From Gemmata massiliana (GTDB lineage Bacteria; Planctomycetota; Planctomycetia; Gemmatales; Gemmataceae): 64,000 bases of DNA. The notes under the pieces are model-generated. The model did no database searches. It was not told where the DNA came from and saw only the letters and a list, made by a program, of their open reading frames with translations. A program made the translations under genes and the position numbers. The stretch spans positions 669,311 through 733,310 of the forward strand of contig HG799465.1 of NCBI GenBank assembly GCA_000531095.1, written 5' to 3'. Shown piece by piece: positions 53,947 to 64,000 of the stretch. Each line of letters opens with the position of its first letter. Within the stretch, counting starts at the first letter, position 1.

Positions 53947-54999
53947 ATGCGGCCCCAATGAATGATTGAGTGAAACGAAAACGCTCCCGCGCCGACCGAG
54001 AGCGGTCGGTGCTGCGACGATCGGCGCTGGAGTGCGATGTTGTGGGGGAGCTGTGAGGCCGGCGCGAGCGCAGAATGACGTACCGGATCGGTTGCGCTTA
54101 ATGCGCAAAACCGGTCCGTGAAACTGCTAGGCGCGCGGGTGCGAAGGCTTTAACAGCGCAGTGGTGCGCAGTGGCCGTTGGGGAGCGAGTGATTGGAGTG
54201 GTGGGAGAGAGAGTCGGAAGTGTTCGGTCGGGGGAGGGGAGTTACTGCGAGCGGTGATCCGGTCCACGTCGCTCGACCCGTGCTCGGGTGGTTCGGTGCG
54301 ACCGGGGCCGAACAGACTACGGCCTCTTTGAGTACCTCGGCCGCTTCGCTCGAAACGTCTTCGGGCGCCCCACCGTTGGTGCTCGCCCCTGCCAACACCA
54401 GAAGCAGAATGATTTTATAAGCAACGAATCGGGCGGCGGCGATGAGGTGTGTGGGGAGTCGCGGGTCGCGTGGCGGTCGGAAGTAAGTTCGGACGAGGAG
54501 GGGCATGCGCGTCTCAGTTCGGTTCCGAGTTCCAGACGCGACACTGGTCGCAGCTTGTACATTCTTAGCGCCGCACCGCCGTATGTCAACCCGGAGAGCA
54601 GAAGGGCGTGCGCGGGATCGGTCGCAGAAGCTCGATATCGTCCGCGCGAGTACCGCGAGTTCATCCCAAGTGTCCGACTTTCCCCGCGGGAACTGTCCGT
54701 TCGCGCCGGAGCTTACCGCGAGCATTCACTCGCCCACGCGGTGCTCAACCGGTCTTCACGGCCCGTCGAGGAGTTCCCCCACGATCCAACGATTCGGGTA
54801 TGATAACCTATGCGTCGTATTAACAGCGCGGTGGGGGATAGCGAGAAGACAGTTCCGATCGGCCCCGCCGGGCCGAATTCGTGGTAAAAATTACGAACTG
54901 CTCTCTTGCTCTCGCCGATTGCGCCGACCAGATTATCACGCATGACCCCGCCGCGTTGCCATGCCAGCGGGTGCCGTACCGGGCCGAAGGACACCATCA
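53947..54999. other. Long gap with no secure gene
   Basis: Several overlapping short frames exist on both strands but none has family features. The only one I would keep open is 54150-54506. The rest, including the plus-strand frame at 54505-54945, is of Arg/Ser/Thr-rich shadow type. No repeats or hairpins of note were seen. Confidence 0.4.
54150..54506 (-). CDS. Doubtful small protein with a hydrophobic segment
   Basis: From ATG 54506 the frame codes for 118 residues. It begins MPLLVRTYFRPPRDPR, has a hydrophobic stretch (FVAYKIILLLVLAGAS) that could be a membrane anchor or signal, and a tail with an acidic patch (APEDVSSEAAEVLKEA). No ribosome site is visible. The codon use is only fair. 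It may be a lipoprotein-like gene or chance; I give it low weight. Confidence 0.3.
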   Translation of the reverse strand: MPLLVRTYFRPPRDPRLPTHLIAAARFVAYKIILLLVLAGASTNGGAPEDVSSEAAEVLKEAVVCSAPVAPNHPSTGRATWTGSPLAVTPLPRPNTSDSLSHHSNHSLPNGHCAPLRC

Positions 55000-56589
55000 A
55001 TGCCGGCACCCGCCACCGTGCCCGACTTTCTGGAACTGGTCCGCAAAGGCGGACTCGTGCCGGACAAGAAACTCAACGACCTCCTCGGTCGTCACCAAAC
55101 CACGGGCACACCACAGACGATCGACCAGGCGGCCGCCGCCCTCGTGCGCGACGCGCAGCTCACGTTCTTCCAGGCCAAACAGCTCAAACTCGGGCGCTAC
55201 AAGCGGTTCACCATCGGTAGCAAGTACCGGCTCCTCGAACTCATCGGGGCCGGCGGCATGGGGGCGGTGTATTTGTGTGAACATACGCTCATGAAACGCC
55301 TCGTGGCGCTCAAGGTGCTGCCCGTCGAGAAGCTCGAAGACCCCTCGAACCTGGACCGGTTCTACCGTGAGGCCCGCGCGGTCGCGGCGCTCGACCACCC
55401 GAACATCGTGCGCGCCTACGACATCGACCAGTACGAGAAGCTCCACTTCCTCGTCATGGAGTACGTGGACGGTGCGAGCCTTCAGGAGATCATCGCGCGC
55501 CACGCGACCGAGAAGAAGCTGTTCGACCCGGTCCGCGCCGCGCACTACATCGCGCAGGCCGCGGTGGGGATGCAGCACGCGCACGAACTGGGGATGGTTC
55601 ACCGCGACATCAAGCCGGGGAACCTGCTACTCGACCGCACCGGCGTAATCAAAGTTCTCGACATGGGGCTGGCGCGGTTCTTCAACAAGCAGCAGGACAG
55701 CGTGACCGAGAAGTACGACGACAAGTGCGTGCTCGGCACCGCGGACTACCTCGCGCCGGAACAGGCCGTGAGCAACATCGTGGACGTGCGCGCGGACATT
55801 TACTCGCTCGGCGGCACGCTCTACTTCATGCTGACCGGGCAGACCCCGTTCCCGGACGGGACCATCGCGGCGAAGCTGGTCGCGCACCAGACGAGCGAGC
55901 CGCGCGCGGTAGAGGAGTTCCGGTCCGACGTGCCGGCCGGGGTGCTGGCCGTTCTGCGGAAAATGATGGCGAAAGACCCGATCGATCGGTACCAGGAACC
56001 GATCGAAGTGGCCGAGGCGCTGGCGGAATGGGCCGAAGCCCCGCTCGGTCTGCCGCCGGAAGTGGAAATGCCGGTGCTGTGCCCCCTCGTGCGGGAACTG
56101 GCCGGTCCGCCGGCACCGGACCGTTCGGGTGCGTCCCCGCCGTTGGCGCGTGTTCTGTTCGGCCCTGGGAGAGGGGTGTTCGCGCGGTCCGGGGAGAGTT
56201 CGATCCGGAGTCGGTCGCGCGCCCCCGGTTCTGGCGGGACGGCGAGTGCGGCCGCGCTCCCTCCAAATCCGACGGCCGCAAATGCCCGGTTCCGCTCGGG
56301 TGCGGACACACCCGTGAACGGGCCGATTTCTACCGGGCGCGCGAGCGCCTCACCAACGGCCCCGATTCCGGGGCGCCAGAAACCGGCTTCGAGCACCGCC
56401 AAGAAGCGCCCGGCGCCGACGGTCGAAGCCGCGACCGTACCGGCTCCGGCCCGTTCGCGCGTCTGGTTGATTGTCGCGATCGCACTTGTGGTCGCGGTCC
56501 TTTTCGTAGTCGGTATGGTCGTTGCTTATCAGGTCGGCAAGGGCGCCAAAGAAGCGAATGCGCCTGCGGACTCGGTTCGGCCGATGTGA
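55000..56589 (+). CDS. Ser/Thr protein kinase, tandem copy 1
   Basis: The start at 55000 is preceded by GAAGGA and aligns with the paralogue; 529 residues. An N-terminal domain of about 70 residues (FLELVRKGGLVPDKKL, FFQAKQLKLG) precedes the kinase. Kinase motifs: GAGGMGAVYL, the lysine in ALKVLPVEKL, HRDIKPGNLLLD and the metal site DMGLAR, where DFG would be usual, then GTADYLAPEQ. A Pro/Ser/Arg-rich linker leads to one membrane helix (VWLIVAIALVVAVLFVVGMVV) near the end. The kinase thus lies inside and almost nothing outside. Confidence 0.92.
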   Translation: MPAPATVPDFLELVRKGGLVPDKKLNDLLGRHQTTGTPQTIDQAAAALVRDAQLTFFQAKQLKLGRYKRFTIGSKYRLLELIGAGGMGAVYLCEHTLMKRLVALKVLPVEKLEDPSNLDRFYREARAVAALDHPNIVRAYDIDQYEKLHFLVMEYVDGASLQEIIARHATEKKLFDPVRAAHYIAQAAVGMQHAHELGMVHRDIKPGNLLLDRTGVIKVLDMGLARFFNKQQDSVTEKYDDKCVLGTADYLAPEQAVSNIVDVRADIYSLGGTLYFMLTGQTPFPDGTIAAKLVAHQTSEPRAVEEFRSDVPAGVLAVLRKMMAKDPIDRYQEPIEVAEALAEWAEAPLGLPPEVEMPVLCPLVRELAGPPAPDRSGASPPLARVLFGPGRGVFARSGESSIRSRSRAPGSGGTASAAALPPNPTAANARFRSGADTPVNGPISTGRASASPTAPIPGRQKPASSTAKKRPAPTVEAATVPAPARSRVWLIVAIALVVAVLFVVGMVVAYQVGKGAKEANAPADSVRPM

Positions 56590-56749
56590 CCGGTCCCGTC
56601 AAATCTGGTTCCGCTCGGTGCGATTCGGGAATCCGTAACCCTGGAGTGCCGCCGTACACTATACTTATGGCGGTCCTGCGCCCAGATTCTGGTTATTCCG
56701 GCGCCGGACGCTTGGTTCGCCCCGCCCGGTTTCGCGCCGGAGATGTTCC

Positions 56750-59260
56750 ATGCCCGCACCGACAACCGCGGACGAGATCCTGGACCTCGTCCAGAAAAGC
56801 GGCCTCGTTGACGAGGTCCGGCTCCGGAATTACGTCCAGAAGTTGCGCGAATCCGACGCGATCCCCGCCGACCCGACCAAAATCGCGCAGATCCTCGTCC
56901 GCGATGGGGTGCTGACCTACTTCCAAGCCGAGCAACTCCTGCAAGGTAAATACAAGCGGTTCAGCCTCGGCAAGTACAAGGTGCTGGAGAAGTTGGGTTC
57001 CGGCGGCATGGGTACAGTGTTCCTGTGCGAACACAAACTGATGCGCCGCCGGGTCGCGGTGAAGGTGCTGCCGATCTCCAAGGGCGGCGACAAGGCGAGC
57101 CTGGAGCGGTTCTACCGCGAGGCCCGCGCGATCGCGGCCGTGGACCACCCGAACATCGTGCGCGCCTACGACATCGATCAGGACGAGAACCTCCATTTCT
57201 TGGTTATGGAGTGGGTGGACGGGATCAACCTTCAGGATCTGGTCAAGAAGTTCGGGCCACTCGACCCGACCCGCGCGTGTCACTACGCATACGGCGCCGC
57301 GATCGGGTTGCAGCACGCTCACGAGATGGGGCTGATTCACCGCGACATTAAGCCCGGGAACATCCTGGTGGACCGGTTCGGTGTGGTGAAGGTGCTGGAC
57401 CTCGGGTTGGCGCGCCTGACGCACGACACCGAAGACAATCTGACGCGACTGCACGACGAGAACGTGCTCGGGACCGCCGATTACCTGGCGCCCGAGCAGG
57501 CGATGGACAGCCACACGGTGGACATCCGGGCGGACATTTACGCGCTCGGCGCGACGATGTACTTCCTGCTCAGCGGCAGCCCGCCGTTCCCCGAAGGGTC
57601 GGTGGCCCAAAAGCTGATCTGGCACCAGAACCGCACCCCGCGCCCGCTCCGCCAGCTCCGCGCCGACGCCCCCGACGAACTCGTCGCGGTCGTCGAGCGC
57701 ATGATGTCGAAAGACCCCGCCCGGCGCTACCAGACCCCGGCCGAGGTGATGGCGGCACTGGCCGGTTGGGTGACCACGCCGATCCCGCCCCCGGCCGAGC
57801 GCGAGATGCCCACCCTGTCGCCTGCCGTGGTCAATGCCGCGGGCGGGCGCGGAACCGGCCTTTCGCCGGCTCTGACGAGTTCCACGTCGACGGGCGGCTT
57901 TAACCGCTCGAACCCGGCCCCCAGCCCGCCCACGTTCACCACCGCCGCGACCGTTATCACGGGATCGACCCCGCGCCCGGCCCCCGCACCGCCCCGTACC
58001 GAGCCGGCCGCGGTGTGGGCCAACCTCGAACAAGAAACGCAAGACCAGGCCCGCAGCGACACCGAAAAACCGGAACCGATCGAGCTCCCGATCCCCGAAG
58101 AGGAAGAGCGCCCGTCGCGCGTCGGGCGCAAGAAGCCCGTGGGGGCCGGTACCGGGAAGATCGTGCTCTTGGCCTGTGTCTGCGCGCTCGTTTTTGTCGC
58201 GGTGGTCGCGACCGCGTACTTCGTGTTTTTCAACCGCTCGACCCAACCCACGGCGCCCGCGACGGGACCGGGGACCGGTCCCAAAAGGATCACGGTCTCG
58301 AAAGCGGGCGGCGAAAACGCGGTCGGCTCGCTCCGCGAGGCGCTCCAGAAGGCCGGACCCGGCGACATCATCGTGATCGCCGAACCGAAGCTCGTCGAAT
58401 CCACGATCCGGCTCGACAGCAAGAAGCACAAGGATCTCACCATCGAGTCCGCGATCGAGAGCCGCCCCGCCGTGATCGAGTTCGCGTCGAGGGGCGGAGC
58501 GATGTTCGACGCGAGCAACGTCGAGGGCTTTCGCCTGCGCAACGTGGAATTCGATGGGAAGGGGCAGGCCGAGATCGGGCTACAGGTGAACGGTACCTCG
58601 CCCGGGGCCGCGGTCGAGAACGTAACCCTGCGCAACGTGCAGAAGACGGGGATTCACCTGTGGCACATTGCGGGCGCCGCCGGGCGCCCGGTGACCCTTG
58701 ATCGGGTGCGCACTATTCTCCCGCCCGAGAGCGAGGCCGGGGTGCTGTTGTACGCAACCACCGTGGACAACAAGTTCCTCACGATCAAGAACAGCCGTTT
58801 CGAGGGACCGGGACGCTCGGGGATTCGCATCGACGGGCCGATTACCGATTTCGAGGTCACCAACAACCGATTTTATAACTTGGTCGGCGCCGGGGTCGTG
58901 TTCGTCCGTCCGCTCGGGCGCCCGTCCCGGGGCACGTTCGCGAACAACACGTTCTACCAAATGCCCGTCGGGTTTCTGTTCGAGTGCCCCGGGGCCGAAC
59001 TCGGAGTGTATGACCTCAAGATATCACTGAACTATTTCGCGCGCATCCCGGACCTGCTCAAAGTACAGGGGCCGATCAAATTTGGGGCGCCCGACAATTT
59101 CTACGAACCGAACTCCGGTCCCGGGAGCCCGGGGCTCCTTTCGACCAAACTCGATGCGCCGAAGTTGCCCGATCTGCCGAACCCGAACGACGACGCGGCG
59201 TTCCTCCGGTTCCCCACGCCCCCCCCAATGGCCGGCGCGAGCCGCGTCGGAGCGCATTAG
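56750..59260 (+). CDS. Ser/Thr protein kinase with predicted beta-helix ectodomain, tandem copy 2
   Basis: An 836-residue protein. The N-terminal domain (ILDLVQKSGLVDEVRL, YFQAEQLLQGKYKRF) and kinase (GSGGMGTVFL, AVKVLPI, HRDIKPGNILVD, DLGLAR, GTADYLAPEQ) are closely related to copy 1. After a Pro/Thr-rich linker and a membrane helix (IVLLACVCALVFVAVVATAYFVFF, near residue 475) comes about 330 residues of short repeated strands such as NVEGFRLRNVEFDGKG, AVENVTLRNVQKTGIHL and KNSRFEGPGRSGI, typical of right-handed parallel beta-helices. It could sense a polymer outside and signal inwards. Confidence 0.92.
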   Translation: MPAPTTADEILDLVQKSGLVDEVRLRNYVQKLRESDAIPADPTKIAQILVRDGVLTYFQAEQLLQGKYKRFSLGKYKVLEKLGSGGMGTVFLCEHKLMRRRVAVKVLPISKGGDKASLERFYREARAIAAVDHPNIVRAYDIDQDENLHFLVMEWVDGINLQDLVKKFGPLDPTRACHYAYGAAIGLQHAHEMGLIHRDIKPGNILVDRFGVVKVLDLGLARLTHDTEDNLTRLHDENVLGTADYLAPEQAMDSHTVDIRADIYALGATMYFLLSGSPPFPEGSVAQKLIWHQNRTPRPLRQLRADAPDELVAVVERMMSKDPARRYQTPAEVMAALAGWVTTPIPPPAEREMPTLSPAVVNAAGGRGTGLSPALTSSTSTGGFNRSNPAPSPPTFTTAATVITGSTPRPAPAPPRTEPAAVWANLEQETQDQARSDTEKPEPIELPIPEEEERPSRVGRKKPVGAGTGKIVLLACVCALVFVAVVATAYFVFFNRSTQPTAPATGPGTGPKRITVSKAGGENAVGSLREALQKAGPGDIIVIAEPKLVESTIRLDSKKHKDLTIESAIESRPAVIEFASRGGAMFDASNVEGFRLRNVEFDGKGQAEIGLQVNGTSPGAAVENVTLRNVQKTGIHLWHIAGAAGRPVTLDRVRTILPPESEAGVLLYATTVDNKFLTIKNSRFEGPGRSGIRIDGPITDFEVTNNRFYNLVGAGVVFVRPLGRPSRGTFANNTFYQMPVGFLFECPGAELGVYDLKISLNYFARIPDLLKVQGPIKFGAPDNFYEPNSGPGSPGLLSTKLDAPKLPDLPNPNDDAAFLRFPTPPPMAGASRVGAH

Positions 59261-60159: not shown

Positions 60160-60168
60160 GTTCATAAC
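60159..60168 (+). repeat. Left target-site duplication of the ISAs1-type element
   Basis: GGTTCATAAC directly abuts the left terminal repeat. The same ten bases directly abut the right end at 61352-61361. The stop codon of the SGNH hydrolase ends at the first base of this copy. Confidence 0.9.
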
Positions 60169-61351
60169 CAGGGCGTGCGCACTTTATTGGGCCGTAATTC
60201 CTGGGATAACTTGCAATAGGTAGTTGTCATCCCAACCGGCCTTCATGCGCCGCGTTTTGGTGCTGCCTTTGGTCTTGGCGCGCTTCAGGAGCGACACGGC
60301 CACGCGCCGGAGCATCCCCAGGTTGGCCCCCGCGTGGCCGGTTCGGGCACGGCTGTCGTCCTCTCGGAACGCCACATCCAGTACCCAGTGCAGCCCATTC
60401 TCGATGCCCCAATGGTTCCGAATGTAACCGGCTAGCACCGCCGCGCTCACGCGCAGGCGGGTGATGTAATAGTGCCCGGTGCCCTCGTTCTTCTGACCCT
60501 TTACCCGGCGCTCCCGGCACACCAGCGCCACCGCGCCCACATCCGACCAACCATCCGGGTCTTGGACCACCGTTACATACCGCTCTTCCTCGCGCCCGTG
60601 ACCCACACCCGCCTCGGCCGCCATGTCGAACACGTCGGCCACGGCGTCGTGCAACCCCTTCTGGTTCCCCTTCACGCACACCACGTACTCACCGCCCTGC
60701 TTGCGGATTTGCTCGATTGTCGCCTTCTGGCACCCGGCCGCGTCCAGTGTCACCACCGCGCCGTTGAGATCCAGGGCCGCCAGCAGGTCGGGCACCGTGG
60801 TGATCTCATGTCCGCCCTCGGGCACCGACCGCTGGCCCAGGATCAGGCGGCTCTCGGTCGCCCATGCGCTAACCAAGTGCAGGCACCCGGTGAACGTGTC
60901 CTGGGCCGACGCCCGCGCGCTCTTGCCATCGACCGCGATGTGGGTCAGCCCGGTCGAGTCGCACAGCTCCGACATCCAGCGCCCGAACCGGTCCGCGAAC
61001 GCATCGGGATCGAGTTTGGCGAACACGCGCTCGAACGTGTCGTGGCTCGGAACCCCGTGGGGTAGCGCCAGGAACCGCCGAAAGAAGTCCTCCTTACTCT
61101 GGCCGTACTCGGCGATCTCCTCCCACCCGTCGGCCCCGGCGATCACCGCGCACGTGGCGATCACCAAGATGTCGGTGAGCTTGTGGAGCTTGTTGGCGGT
61201 TTCGATCCGAGGGTCGGGTACGTCCGCGAACACCGTGGTCAGTGCAAGGGGCATCGGGCATCCTCCTGATACCCTCGGTGTAGACGTAAACGCCTATATC
61301 GTCAGCAGTTCATAGTGCGCACGCCCTGCCGTTCATAGTGCGCACGCCCTG
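60169..61351 (-). mobile_element. Complete ISAs1-type insertion sequence
   Basis: The 1183-base element is bounded by CAGGGCGTGCGCACT (60169-60183) and its exact complement AGTGCGCACGCCCTG (61337-61351), with a ten-base target duplication outside. It carries one transposase gene. The right end contains a second copy of the terminal sequence (61314-61328) in a 23-base tandem unit that begins GTTCATAGTGCGC. The left end has only one. Confidence 0.92.
60184..61254 (-). CDS. ISAs1 family transposase
   Basis: A 356-residue, apparently intact transposase. The N-terminal domain DPRIETANKLHKLTDILVI and CAVIAGADGWEEIAEYG are the DUF4338/H-repeat-like start of ISAs1 enzymes. The catalytic acids are found in HIAVDGKSAR (first Asp), VTLDAAGCQK (second Asp) and NHWGIENGLHWVLDV (Glu). 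The frame has no stop or frameshift and fills the element nearly from end to end, so this copy may still be mobile. It differs from the two transposase relics elsewhere in the window. Confidence 0.95.
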   Translation of the reverse strand: MPLALTTVFADVPDPRIETANKLHKLTDILVIATCAVIAGADGWEEIAEYGQSKEDFFRRFLALPHGVPSHDTFERVFAKLDPDAFADRFGRWMSELCDSTGLTHIAVDGKSARASAQDTFTGCLHLVSAWATESRLILGQRSVPEGGHEITTVPDLLAALDLNGAVVTLDAAGCQKATIEQIRKQGGEYVVCVKGNQKGLHDAVADVFDMAAEAGVGHGREEERYVTVVQDPDGWSDVGAVALVCRERRVKGQKNEGTGHYYITRLRVSAAVLAGYIRNHWGIENGLHWVLDVAFREDDSRARTGHAGANLGMLRRVAVSLLKRAKTKGSTKTRRMKAGWDDNYLLQVIPGITAQ

Positions 61352-61361: not shown

Positions 61362-61511
61362 AGGCTCTAGTGATTGACAACCAGTCCGGCGACCTCGCGC
61401 ACGTCAGTGACGAAGTCCACACGGTCCGCTCGCTCACCCCGGACTCCGACGCCGTCGGCCGGGTTCTCTCGCTGTAGTCCACGTTCTTCTCGCGGCCCGA
61501 TCGGATCCGTT

Positions 61512-62432
61512 GTGGGTCGCGGTCGGGCCGTTTCCATTCCCTTCCCGTTGGAGGTACTTGCCACGACGACCGCAACGGCAGTCCCGTTCCCCCTCGCCGC
61601 CGGAACGCGGCTGCTGGGCGAGGTGATCTCATGGACCTGCTCCGGGGTGAGCGTCACCTACGCCGCCCTGGTCGCTGCTCTCACCGACGCTGAACTGGAC
61701 GAGGGCGTCGCCCGCGAGCTGGCCCCGAAGCACGCCTTCACCCGCGCGTGCAAGAAGCTGTGTGACCGCCGCATTATCCGCCAGGTGGCCGAGGACGAGG
61801 GCACGGTTAAGTTCCAATTCACCCAGGAGTCCCGCGACGGCGACCGCTTCGAGTACACGCTGGAGACGCTCCTCACCCTCGACAAGAAGACCGGGGCGGT
61901 GACGTGCGACCTGCCGGGCCTCGCCACGCTCGCCCAGGAGGAACTGAACCGGGCGATCGACGACCGCAGCGGGGCCGACGTAACTCGCGTGATCCAGAAG
62001 CTGTTCGACCGGCACGCCGACCTCTTCCCGGTGCGCCCGCAAGGCGGGGCCTATTTCGTGCCGGAGCGGCACGTGGCGTTTGTGGACAAGGTGCAGGCGA
62101 TGCTCGGTCGGCTCAACGGCCAGATCCTCCGGTTCCCGGTCCCCGCGGGGACGGCCGAGGGCGACCGGAGCGTGAAGGACGCGGTGGCCGCAGGGCTCGC
62201 GGCCCTGATCGACGAGCACCGCAAGGCGGTCGCGCAGTTCGGGAGCGACACCCGCGACGACACACTGAAGCGGGCCACCGAGAAGATCCGCTCGACGCAG
62301 TTCAAGGTCCAGGCGTACGCGGAGTACCTGCTTGACGAGAAGGGGCGGCTGGATCGCGAACTGTCGACCGCCCGCGACGAATTGCGGCAGAAGGTCGAGC
62401 GGCTCGCCACGGAGCCGACCGCGACCGCGTGA
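61512..62432 (+). CDS. Accessory coiled-coil protein, DUF6744-like
   Basis: The open frame reaches back to 61374, but its first 45 residues are a Ser/Arg/Pro-rich run without protein character. I take the GTG at 61512 as an approximate start; the conserved part may begin even later, near 61560 behind GGAGGT. The protein contains GTRLLGEVISWTCSG, a helical DNA-binding-like KLCDRRIIRQVAEDEG and a long C-terminal coiled coil (RKAVAQFG to LRQKVERL). I think it belongs to the DUF6744-type proteins that turn up in phages and plasmids, with moderate certainty. It opens a coupled cassette. Confidence 0.6.
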   Translation: MGRGRAVSIPFPLEVLATTTATAVPFPLAAGTRLLGEVISWTCSGVSVTYAALVAALTDAELDEGVARELAPKHAFTRACKKLCDRRIIRQVAEDEGTVKFQFTQESRDGDRFEYTLETLLTLDKKTGAVTCDLPGLATLAQEELNRAIDDRSGADVTRVIQKLFDRHADLFPVRPQGGAYFVPERHVAFVDKVQAMLGRLNGQILRFPVPAGTAEGDRSVKDAVAAGLAALIDEHRKAVAQFGSDTRDDTLKRATEKIRSTQFKVQAYAEYLLDEKGRLDRELSTARDELRQKVERLATEPTATA

Positions 62433-62503
62433 GTGTTCGCACCCGTCTCGAAGGCCGGGCCGCACGGCCCGTTCACTCCCGCCACCCCAACCCGGAGATC
62501 GAC

Positions 62504-62827
62504 ATGACTACCGGCGTGGCCCGTGCCCGCGACCGGACAGTCTTGTTCCTGACCACTCCCGCCCTGTGGCCGTGCTGGCCGTTTCTCCCCGTCGTCCGCC
62601 GCACCAGTGGGCGGGAAGAACTGGGCGTGGTGTTCGACGCCCGGTCGGTGTGCGGGCGGACCGGCTTCTCGGCCTGCGTGTTCCTGACCAACGTGTTCGC
62701 CCTGCCGCCCACCATCGACGAGTTCTTCTTGCTCTCCCGCCAAGCCTGCGACTCGGCCGACGAGCTGTTCGACGGCGGCTGGCAGGTGGATCGACTTTCG
62801 ACTCATCCCCGGAGGTTACAAACGTGA
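62504..62827 (+). CDS. Small accessory protein, 107 aa
   Basis: ATG 62504 has CGGAG upstream; the frame can also be opened at GTG 62429, overlapping the gene before. The stretches WPFLPVVRRTSGREELGVVF, CVFLTNVFALPPTIDEFF and DELFDGGWQVDRL look conserved rather than random. I have no family name. It has no membrane helix. It ends with a GTGA overlap with the sliding-clamp-like gene, so the two are made together. Confidence 0.6.
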   Translation: MTTGVARARDRTVLFLTTPALWPCWPFLPVVRRTSGREELGVVFDARSVCGRTGFSACVFLTNVFALPPTIDEFFLLSRQACDSADELFDGGWQVDRLSTHPRRLQT

Positions 62828-64000
62828 TTGCGATTCCACACGGGTTGTGCCGGGCGTTCCCGGCTCTGGCCCGAAAGTGCGTGTCCGGTGGGCCGGCACC
62901 TGCTGTCGTGTTCGAGGCGAAAGGCGGGACGCGGACCGTCTGGGTGGAGACCGACGACGCGGCCCTCGCGTACACGGCCCCGACGGAGGGTAGCGACGAG
63001 GTGCTCGTGGCCCCGATGGCCATGCTCGAAGCTGCTGCGGGGCCGGGCGGTGAGCCTGTCGAGTTGTGCGTGGGATCGAAGCTCAAGGGCGAGGACCGGT
63101 GGTCCGAGCGCGGTGTTCCGAAATCCCACCCGTTCGAGGCGATCCTGCCCGGCAAGCAGCACCGACCGCCCGACGCGCCGGAGGCGTGGCACGCGGTCCC
63201 GATCGCGTTCCTCGCGGCTCTGCACGAGTGCGGCCGGCCGGCGGCGAAGGACGCCGGGCGTTTCTCTTTGACCCGCGTGCAGCTCAGGGGCAAGGCGGGT
63301 CAGGTAGTCGCCACCGATGGACGCACCGCACTCCTCCGCGGTGGATTCTCACTCCCGTTCACAGAGGACGTGCTGGCCCCGGCACTCCCCGTCTTCGGGA
63401 CTCGCGAGTTAGTCGGCGAGCGGGCGGTGCGTCTCGGGCGTACCACGACGCACCTGATCGTGGCCGCCGGGTCGTGGCGCGTGTTCCTGCCGATCGACAA
63501 GACCGGCCGCTACCCGGATGTCGCCGGTGTTGTGCCGCGCAACGCTCCCACCACCGTGGCGATCGACGACCGGGACGCCGCCGAACTGATCGAGAAGTTG
63601 TCGGGCCTGCCCGGCGGTGAGGCCGACCACCGCCCGGTCGCTCTCGCCGTCGACAGCGGATTCGTCGTCCGGGCCGGCGAAGAGAAGAGCGAGAAGATCT
63701 GCGAGGTGCGGCTGCGCCATTCGACTGCGAACGGCCCCGGCGTCCGGGCGGTGATCGACCGGCGCGTCCTGGGCCGTGCCCTCGCGCTCGGCTGCCGGAC
63801 CGTTCGCCTCACTCCTGACAAGCCGGTCGTGTTCGAGCGCAAGGACACGACCCTTCTCACCGTGGCACTCGATCCGGCCCTCGCGGTCGGGCCGAAGCCT
63901 GATACCAACCCCACCATCACCAACACCAGAAACAACAAGGAGACTGCCGTGAAGAGCGAGACGAACGGGCACCCGCCCAACGGCCGGCACGACCCGCCGG
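62824..64000 (+). CDS. Divergent DNA sliding-clamp-like protein, 3' end outside window
   Basis: The frame starts at GTG 62824 with GGAGG upstream and stays open to the window edge (over 390 residues). The middle FSLTRVQLRGKAGQVVATDG followed by RTALL is the pattern of the central domain of the beta clamp (DnaN). YPDVAGVVPRN and VIDRRVLGRALALG then resemble the stretches that follow in DnaN. The overall similarity is weak, so it is a distant relative and not the replicative clamp. A clamp relative in an accessory cassette suggests element-encoded replication or a DNA-end process. An in-frame ribosome site and GTG at 63949 lie near the end of the visible part. Confidence 0.55.
   Translation, partial: MIAIPHGLCRAFPALARKCVSGGPAPAVVFEAKGGTRTVWVETDDAALAYTAPTEGSDEVLVAPMAMLEAAAGPGGEPVELCVGSKLKGEDRWSERGVPKSHPFEAILPGKQHRPPDAPEAWHAVPIAFLAALHECGRPAAKDAGRFSLTRVQLRGKAGQVVATDGRTALLRGGFSLPFTEDVLAPALPVFGTRELVGERAVRLGRTTTHLIVAAGSWRVFLPIDKTGRYPDVAGVVPRNAPTTVAIDDRDAAELIEKLSGLPGGEADHRPVALAVDSGFVVRAGEEKSEKICEVRLRHSTANGPGVRAVIDRRVLGRALALGCRTVRLTPDKPVVFERKDTTLLTVALDPALAVGPKPDTNPTITNTRNNKETAVKSETNGHPPNGRHDPP

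Follow-up and report, generated by a model that had tools for sequence, protein, structure and literature searches.

Sliding clamps are generally considered to be handled by AAA+ loaders of a single family and to have one conserved partner cleft in common. Within that cleft E. coli Arg176 and Leu177 are part of subsite I, and the portion of PMC11139829 available to us calls only Gly174 and Val344 of the pocket non-conserved and gives QLNLF as the clamp-binding motif of Pol V. In the MoxR-vWA pairs that have been studied, the vWA domain captures a substrate peptide that the MoxR ATPase remodels and releases, and planctomycetes are among the reported hosts of ternary conflict systems in which a third conserved gene joins such a pair (Kaur et al. 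2020, PMC7159879, accessible in part). RavA-ViaA is the MoxR-VWA chaperone pair of E. coli, and a jumbo-phage pair of MoxR and a metallopeptidase-vWA protein, with a proposed role in virion assembly, is described in PMC7824862, whose accessible part treats MoxR, vWA and the sliding clamp in separate sections. Clamps, MoxR-vWA pairs and phage DnaN are each known already, and we found no published description of a divergent clamp beside MoxR-VWA-DUF6744, nor literature naming DUF6744 or treating Moorella phage MTATph1, in a search that covered subscription papers thinly and is no proof of novelty.

Here we describe a locus at the right end of a 64,000-nucleotide stretch of Gemmata massiliana DNA (contig HG799465.1, positions 669,311 to 733,310; hereafter the window), in a genome of 9.27 Mb in 22 contigs. 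The part under study (G000:C4:730822-733310) encodes a DUF6744 protein, a small protein and a protein that is almost certainly a very divergent sliding clamp of the DnaN type. In related loci the conserved order is MoxR AAA+, VWA, DUF6744, small protein, clamp and two membrane-type proteins, and we refer to the MoxR-VWA-DUF6744 triad and its counterparts elsewhere as the engine of this cassette.

Identity of the clamp and its distance from host DnaN

A first-pass annotation of the window, made from the sequence alone, had proposed three consecutive genes for a DUF6744-like, a small and a clamp-like protein, and the open reading frames agree (Table 1), the first product passing the PF20529 cut-off. 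The stop TGA of the small frame lies inside 62824-62827, so that the GTGA overlap proposed for the last two genes is real, and a second GTGA overlap joins the end of the clamp gene (64173) to the next gene downstream. As that annotation also noted, the cassette continues past the window. Two membrane-type protein genes follow the clamp there (the first frameshifted in this copy, the second ending near 65550). The annotation named two outcomes as refuting, a structure model without clamp-type domain pairs and a gene order conserved in no other genome; we observed neither, as the model has the clamp fold and the order recurs in the loci of relatives.

The clamp likeness, ranked there as the weakest point, proved correct. 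The sole confident family match of the product was PHROG phrog_947, 'DNA polymerase processivity factor' (E 3.5e-8), and profile A2, built from 15 planctomycete clamps with no DnaN among them, matched solved DnaN structures, best 7rzm (E 2.8e-8); profile A1 contained a DnaN, and its strong PDB matches were not used as evidence. An hhalign comparison with four DnaN gave 96.4 % probability (E 1.4e-9). The structure model (residues 1-392; pLDDT 84.9, pTM 0.81, with residues 360-392 below 50) superposed on the solved DnaN 6fvn_D with Z 27.8 and rmsd 2.8 Å over 337 residues, revealing a three-domain fold over residues 1-351. The structural matches listed by Foldseek and VIA-align were DnaN, all 50 listed VIA rows being beta-clamp entries, and viral DnaN, close in fold, were among the listed matches to viral structure models. 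The kinship is distant: Pfam gave no match, NCBIfam none at E 0.01 (including the curated DnaN model TIGR00663), a single-sequence PDB search found no DnaN, and of 16 cassette clamps to which an HMM of 33 DnaN was applied, just two (L038, L119) were matched at E 1e-4. Taken together, there is hardly any doubt that the product from 62824 is a three-domain clamp, one that presumably encircles DNA.

The cassette clamps stand well apart from the clamps of their hosts. A TIGR00663 search of the own genome found a single host dnaN, located elsewhere, and when the 17 cassette clamps were placed in a tree with 30 host and 3 plasmid DnaN, they grouped together at the end of a long stem with 100/100 support, the tree program warning of long branches. 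The window clamp is 13-18 % identical to the 30 host DnaN. A duplicate of host dnaN was rejected because the cassette clamps form a separate clade and the host gene lies elsewhere. All 33 ordinary DnaN rows (30/30 host, 3/3 plasmid) carry TDxxRL, whereas at the positions of E. coli Arg176 and Leu177, which the cleft comparison covered, the arginine is present in 0/17 cassette clamps and the leucine in three (L049, L053, L055). Calculated pI was basic in five clamps of the type I loci introduced below (8.2-9.4) versus 5.2-5.5 in three host DnaN, with three type II clamps at 5.0-6.6. Compared with DnaN, the cassette clamps thus share the three-domain fold, detectable homology and the TD motif, and differ in their separate clade, the lost cleft arginine and a C-terminal tail of about 90 residues. 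Compared with the phage processivity factors of PHROG 947, which are the best family match, the difference is one of location, as we found no match to a cassette-type clamp in phage records, plasmids or viral contigs at the sensitivity of those searches.

The tail (past about residue 360) is present in all 15 A2 rows and reads as helical. Near its end, QLNL, QLGL, ALNL or NLNL occurs in each of the 11 type I rows that Gemmataceae contribute to A2 (window equivalent 64089-64173, L005:9400-9484), a possible docking peptide, judging by its letters, for the same clamp or that of the host. These features bear on a reading in which the clamp is a competitor or decoy against the host or a rival replisome and the engine an unrelated passenger: the cleft is altered, the QLNL-like ends resemble the Pol V motif so that docking of the tail on the host clamp is conceivable, and engines exist without clamps. 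Yet the other four A2 rows lack the tail motif and the final Phe is missing in all, and AAA+ engines of three kinds recur upstream of the clamps (next section), which makes a pure passenger unlikely; we regard this reading as quite improbable.

AAA+ engines, and the triad on plasmids and in viruses

We examined 33 full-length cassette clamps in fetched loci, of which 27, chosen for spread and contig extent and so not a random sample, had at least 7 kb of upstream flank. In 23 of these 27 (from 16 genomes, some with several copies) the 7 kb upstream contained an AAA+ gene on the strand of the clamp, and none of the 27 had one downstream. Three engine types were distinguished. Type I, MoxR-VWA-DUF6744, was found at 14 of the 27 loci; type II, at 8 loci, combines a PF00004 AAA protein (8/8 by Pfam) with an unrelated 329-aa protein; type III, at one (L048), has another MoxR-like AAA protein, a DUF6744-like protein and a DUF2201 metallopeptidase-VWA protein. 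The four clamps with no upstream AAA+ gene were those of the window, L039, L041 and L049, the first three retaining DUF6744 or a piece of it. The 329-aa protein was tried as a distant DUF6744 (hhalign probability 0.2-0.3 %) and is not claimed as one. At L116 a type II engine is joined to a type I membrane-type protein (31 % identity).

Relative to described systems, the type I engine resembles RavA-ViaA in having neighbouring or almost neighbouring MoxR and VWA genes whose products match both models, here judged on the engine-bearing locus of contig C3 in the same genome (L006). Its proteins differ in falling far below the curated NCBIfam cut-offs (RavA: E 2.8e-48, 165.2 bits against 681; ViaA: E 1.7e-18, 67.1 bits against 500) and in having DUF6744 alongside in the loci read. 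The type III engine recalls the jumbo-phage MoxR and metallopeptidase-vWA pair (PMC7824862, as far as seen) and differs from it by the DUF6744-like protein and the clamp. A further likeness is to the MoxR-vWA ternary systems, which share MoxR, vWA and a third conserved gene: all three genes were present side by side in relatives at 14/27 clamp loci, 9/9 plasmids and 10/10 viral loci, the window retaining only the VWA end and DUF6744. Unlike those systems, the third component here is DUF6744, and 'clamp' and 'dnaN' are absent from the main text of PMC7159879. None of the known third components (VMAP, iSTAND, FtsH, beta-propeller) was among the Pfam matches listed for ten L006 proteins at E 5 (for MoxR, 25 of 28 families), a search that distant forms could escape. 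The DUF6744 model (pLDDT 52) was too poor for a fold search. Just part of the type I loci have a PAPS-reductase-like gene, whose product in L006 (G000:C3, 4963-5826) matches SspD of DNA phosphorothioation (PADLOC E 1.3e-13) and phage PAPS reductases.

The triad also occurs on mobile elements. One tblastn query found DUF6744 on 13 plasmid records, and in all nine that we read (leaving out one Streptomyces and three Nocardia farcinica) a MoxR and a VWA-type gene lay near it. Five of the nine carry dnaN, which is adjacent to the triad in 2/2 Alicyclobacillus plasmids, 5.5 kb away in the Brevibacillus marinus plasmid, and 6 kb and about 15 kb away in two Rubrobacter plasmids. Set against 362 of 72,556 plasmids with dnaN this gives p 4e-10, which we do not use as evidence, the searches being different, size unmatched and related plasmids counted apart. 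The three plasmid DnaN in our tree fall outside the cassette-clamp group, and clamp and engine may therefore have met more than once. The Listeria plasmid pLIS16, which came up through MoxR, was dropped (no VWA or DUF6744 annotated adjacent, no DUF6744 by HMM).

In viruses, DUF6744-MoxR-VWA is present in Moorella phage MTATph1, and scanning viral contigs with MoxR yielded 10 loci, all with VWA and DUF6744 close by (L190-L192 and L193-L194 being apparently near copies). Their PHROG-assigned neighbours include terminase (L187; weak in L188, E 2.3e-6), a major head protein (L193), DnaB helicase (L189), RecE with a replication initiator (L190) and a DnaN-like protein (L195). A short clamp-loader gene lies near the triad in L193 and L196 (PHROG) and L194 (by identity to them), and, in the same manner, at the planctomycete locus L110 (6670-8379, G055) a short clamp-loader-like AAA+ gene directly precedes DUF6744-like and MoxR-like genes. 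PHROG and PDB sequence searches gave no sign of a second clamp next to the loader gene in L193 and L196. Searches of phage records for DUF6744 by tblastn, and of viral contigs by its own patterns, gave nothing; these negatives, and with them the one on the cassette-type clamp, are weak because the HMM found DUF6744 in the Moorella phage that tblastn missed, and the MoxR query then gave the 10 viral loci.

These neighbourhoods bear on a reading of the cassette as a conflict system of the MoxR-vWA ternary type, in which the clamp would sense or capture foreign forks, the engine act as a switch, and nucleases or the membrane-type proteins serve as effectors. The L006 MoxR matches Pfam bpMoxR (E 6e-47), a family named for such systems, which are already reported from planctomycetes (PMC7159879, in the part seen); the two proteins after the clamp look membrane-type by crude hydropathy; and type II loci L049, L054, L055 and L115, the last three among the eight bearing an engine, have a downstream PD-(D/E)XK nuclease. 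In a PADLOC scan of ten proteins, whose matches are partial matches to system genes, the DEDDh exonuclease of L006 matched PDC-S48 (E 3.6e-29) and the PAPS-like protein matched SspD as given above, but the clamp, small protein and VWA had no match at E 0.01, with DUF6744 (PtuA, E 0.0026) and MoxR (mad8, E 4e-4) matching weakly. The triads of viral loci also lie near packaging or replication genes, a setting in which defence is less to be expected, even if conflict systems too can be phage-borne. We consider this conflict reading an unlikely rival. The first-pass annotation had left open a mobile replicon, a phage-like module or a DNA-based defence: the triad on plasmids, in a phage and in viral contigs favours a mobile-element module, the plasmid search yielded no clamp of the cassette type, and defence remains as the rival just weighed.

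Distribution, mobility and truncation of the window copy

Among 59 genomes searched, our own included, 25 have a clamp match (at most six match rows per genome) and 13 have DUF6744, 11 of which also have a clamp match (Fisher p 7e-4, uncorrected for kinship). By table comparison, 16 of 22 DUF6744 rows have a clamp row no more than about 2 kb away; of the other six, two (L109, L111) are on contigs that end soon after, and four (L106, L107, L108, L110) have an engine but no clamp nearby. A scan of named genomes gave 15 loci, relatives including Gemmataceae bacterium CJuql4 and Planctomycetes bacterium Pan216.

We judge the cassette to be very probably mobile by horizontal transfer. The closest relative by host DnaN (G008, 98 % identity) has no clamp, while G013, at 67 % host DnaN identity, has a clamp 76 % identical to ours, a distribution that fits such transfer. 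L006 lies between a tyrosine recombinase (PF00589) and a serine recombinase (PF00239, PF07508), its order being tyrosine integrase, GP88, DEDDh exonuclease, MoxR, PAPS-like, VWA, DUF6744, small protein, clamp, membrane-type protein and serine recombinase, and L043 has a serine recombinase with, beyond it, a homologue of the L006 integrase (L151, 78 %). No recombinase was identified at the window copy, the Pfam search for recombinases covering a minority of the loci. G008, without the cassette, matches the right flank at 93 % from L005:12901, its left-flank gene lying 2.8 Mb away, i.e. rearranged, and a clean empty site was not obtained there.

The window copy itself is, on comparison with relatives, nearly certain to be the right half of a cassette whose left part was lost and replaced by an insertion sequence. 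Its VWA remnant is 94.6 % identical over 37 columns (stop included) to the VWA ends of L037 and L038 and 78.9 % to that of L006, and at L038 and the other complete type I loci a MoxR gene precedes the VWA gene, the two being separated at some loci by a PAPS-reductase-like gene. Where MoxR and the bulk of the VWA gene would be expected, the window has the insertion sequence. L039 shows a comparable loss: it lacks MoxR and VWA and has an IS66 transposase upstream of its DUF6744 gene. A few kilobases separate this cassette from a phage capsid gene (PF05065 E 7.6e-56; L039 13501-19145, G016). The start of the DUF6744 gene is doubtful: the frame opens at 61374 and is alignable to relatives from about 61563, where the ATG of L037, L042 and L006 reads ACG here. 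The DUF6744 protein is 89-90 % identical to those of L083, L084 and L086; the small protein, with no family match in Pfam or PHROG, is 85-89 % identical to its nearest relatives at the same cassette position.

With the engine gone from the window and a second, engine-bearing cassette on contig C3 (L006; DNA 67 % identical over window 61524-63998), the remnant clamp could be served in trans only. Alternatively the window copy may be a decaying relic without present function, an account compatible with any reading of the intact cassette. Pointing that way are the missing engine, the altered DUF6744 start, the frameshift after the clamp and the insertion sequence in the engine's place, as with the IS66 element at L039. 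Against it, the clamp frame is intact over 449 codons with dN/dS about 0.3 versus two relatives (those relatives versus each other, 0.33), an argument that is weak because most divergence may predate the truncation. On balance we hold the relic account to be unlikely.

Table 1. Features at the right end of the window (window coordinates; 61512 onward is the part under study)
Feature	Position	Strand	Remarks
Insertion sequence	60168..61330	-	ends set by repeated matches in own genome (query 9-1171 of window:60160-61373)
Transposase ORF of insertion sequence	60184-61254	-	356 aa, intact; DDE_Tnp_1 and DDE_Tnp_1_assoc; PF13808 E 2e-33, PF01609 E 1e-21
VWA (ViaA-like) gene remnant	61367..61477	+	final 36 codons and stop
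DUF6744 gene	61374..62432	+	PF20529 E 8.8e-9, cut-off passed
Small protein (SML)	62429..62827	+	part homologous to relatives from ~62504
Divergent sliding clamp	62824..64000	+	GTG start; frame open at window end, stop at window-equivalent 64173; 449 aa

The insertion sequence family has 26 match places in the genome including itself, mostly partial, with three short ones 100 % identical. At the right end of the element (window 61309-61351) the motif TTCATAGTGCGCACGCCCTG occurs twice, 3 bases apart. Further left (54961-59260), the window reads as two tandem serine/threonine protein kinase genes, the second with a long C-terminal part behind a transmembrane-like stretch.

Proposed role of the cassette

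As a whole, the locus is best explained, tentatively and at somewhat less than even confidence, as a horizontally acquired, left-truncated cassette serving mobile-element DNA metabolism, in which an AAA+ machine acts on a private clamp. The intact cassette of relatives encodes a RavA-like MoxR AAA+ ATPase, a ViaA-like VWA partner and DUF6744 as the engine, then the small protein, a private DnaN-type clamp with altered cleft and extra tail and two membrane-type proteins, with a DnaQ-like exonuclease upstream and recombinases at the ends in some copies. Placed on element DNA, the clamp would be a platform poorly recognised by host clamp-binding motifs, and the machine would remodel (load, open or strip) the clamp or its complexes. 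By analogy with MoxR-vWA pairs, the substrate would be the clamp, alone or in a complex, with DUF6744 as adaptor; that the engine acts directly on the clamp is possible on this analogy, though doubtful. The triad on plasmids, in a phage and in viral contigs, partly near replication genes, favours a mobile-element DNA-metabolism module, and we lean towards a replication-type rather than a conflict role.

Several observations weigh against this reading. The clamp is optional, with MoxR-VWA-DUF6744-small protein and no clamp nearby at L106 and L107, and the third engine type and again no clamp nearby at L108 and L110. Since L106 and L107 have other downstream genes, the engine may take different payloads (these genes, of 361 and 432 aa, look alike by reading, and the 361-aa product has a weak restriction-endonuclease match, E 0.023). 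At L042, DUF6744 and the small protein are 90 % and 89 % identical to the window and the clamp only 48 %, a recombination between clamp and engine that argues against tight co-adaptation of the two. Evolution is faster in the clamp than in DUF6744 (dN/dS about 0.3 versus about 0.1), unlike what is expected of a core replication gene, and the membrane-type partners would also suit an effector role. Beyond planctomycetes, dnaN was absent from the whole triad plasmids of B. laterosporus, two Streptomyces and one Nocardia, Moorella phage MTATph1 gave no dnaN match, a single one of the 10 viral records had a DnaN match, which stayed short of the curated cut-off, and 6 of 10 viral loci had no clamp or loader near the triad. 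The non-random choice of loci and the multi-copy genomes behind the upstream AAA+ count belong on the same side.

More broadly, MoxR-VWA-DUF6744 could be a dedicated clamp remodeller that phages, plasmids and integrative elements use, a second AAA+ pathway alongside the DnaX/RFC loaders, with the planctomycete clamp orthogonal and unusable by host clamp-binding proteins, an extension that we put forward as speculative and unlikely. What the comparison brings out is a clamp clade that is set deeply apart, lacks a cleft arginine of ordinary DnaN and lies recurrently behind three kinds of AAA+ engine. If the engine does act on the clamp, this would be an orthogonal clamp system; either way, DUF6744 gains a testable context.

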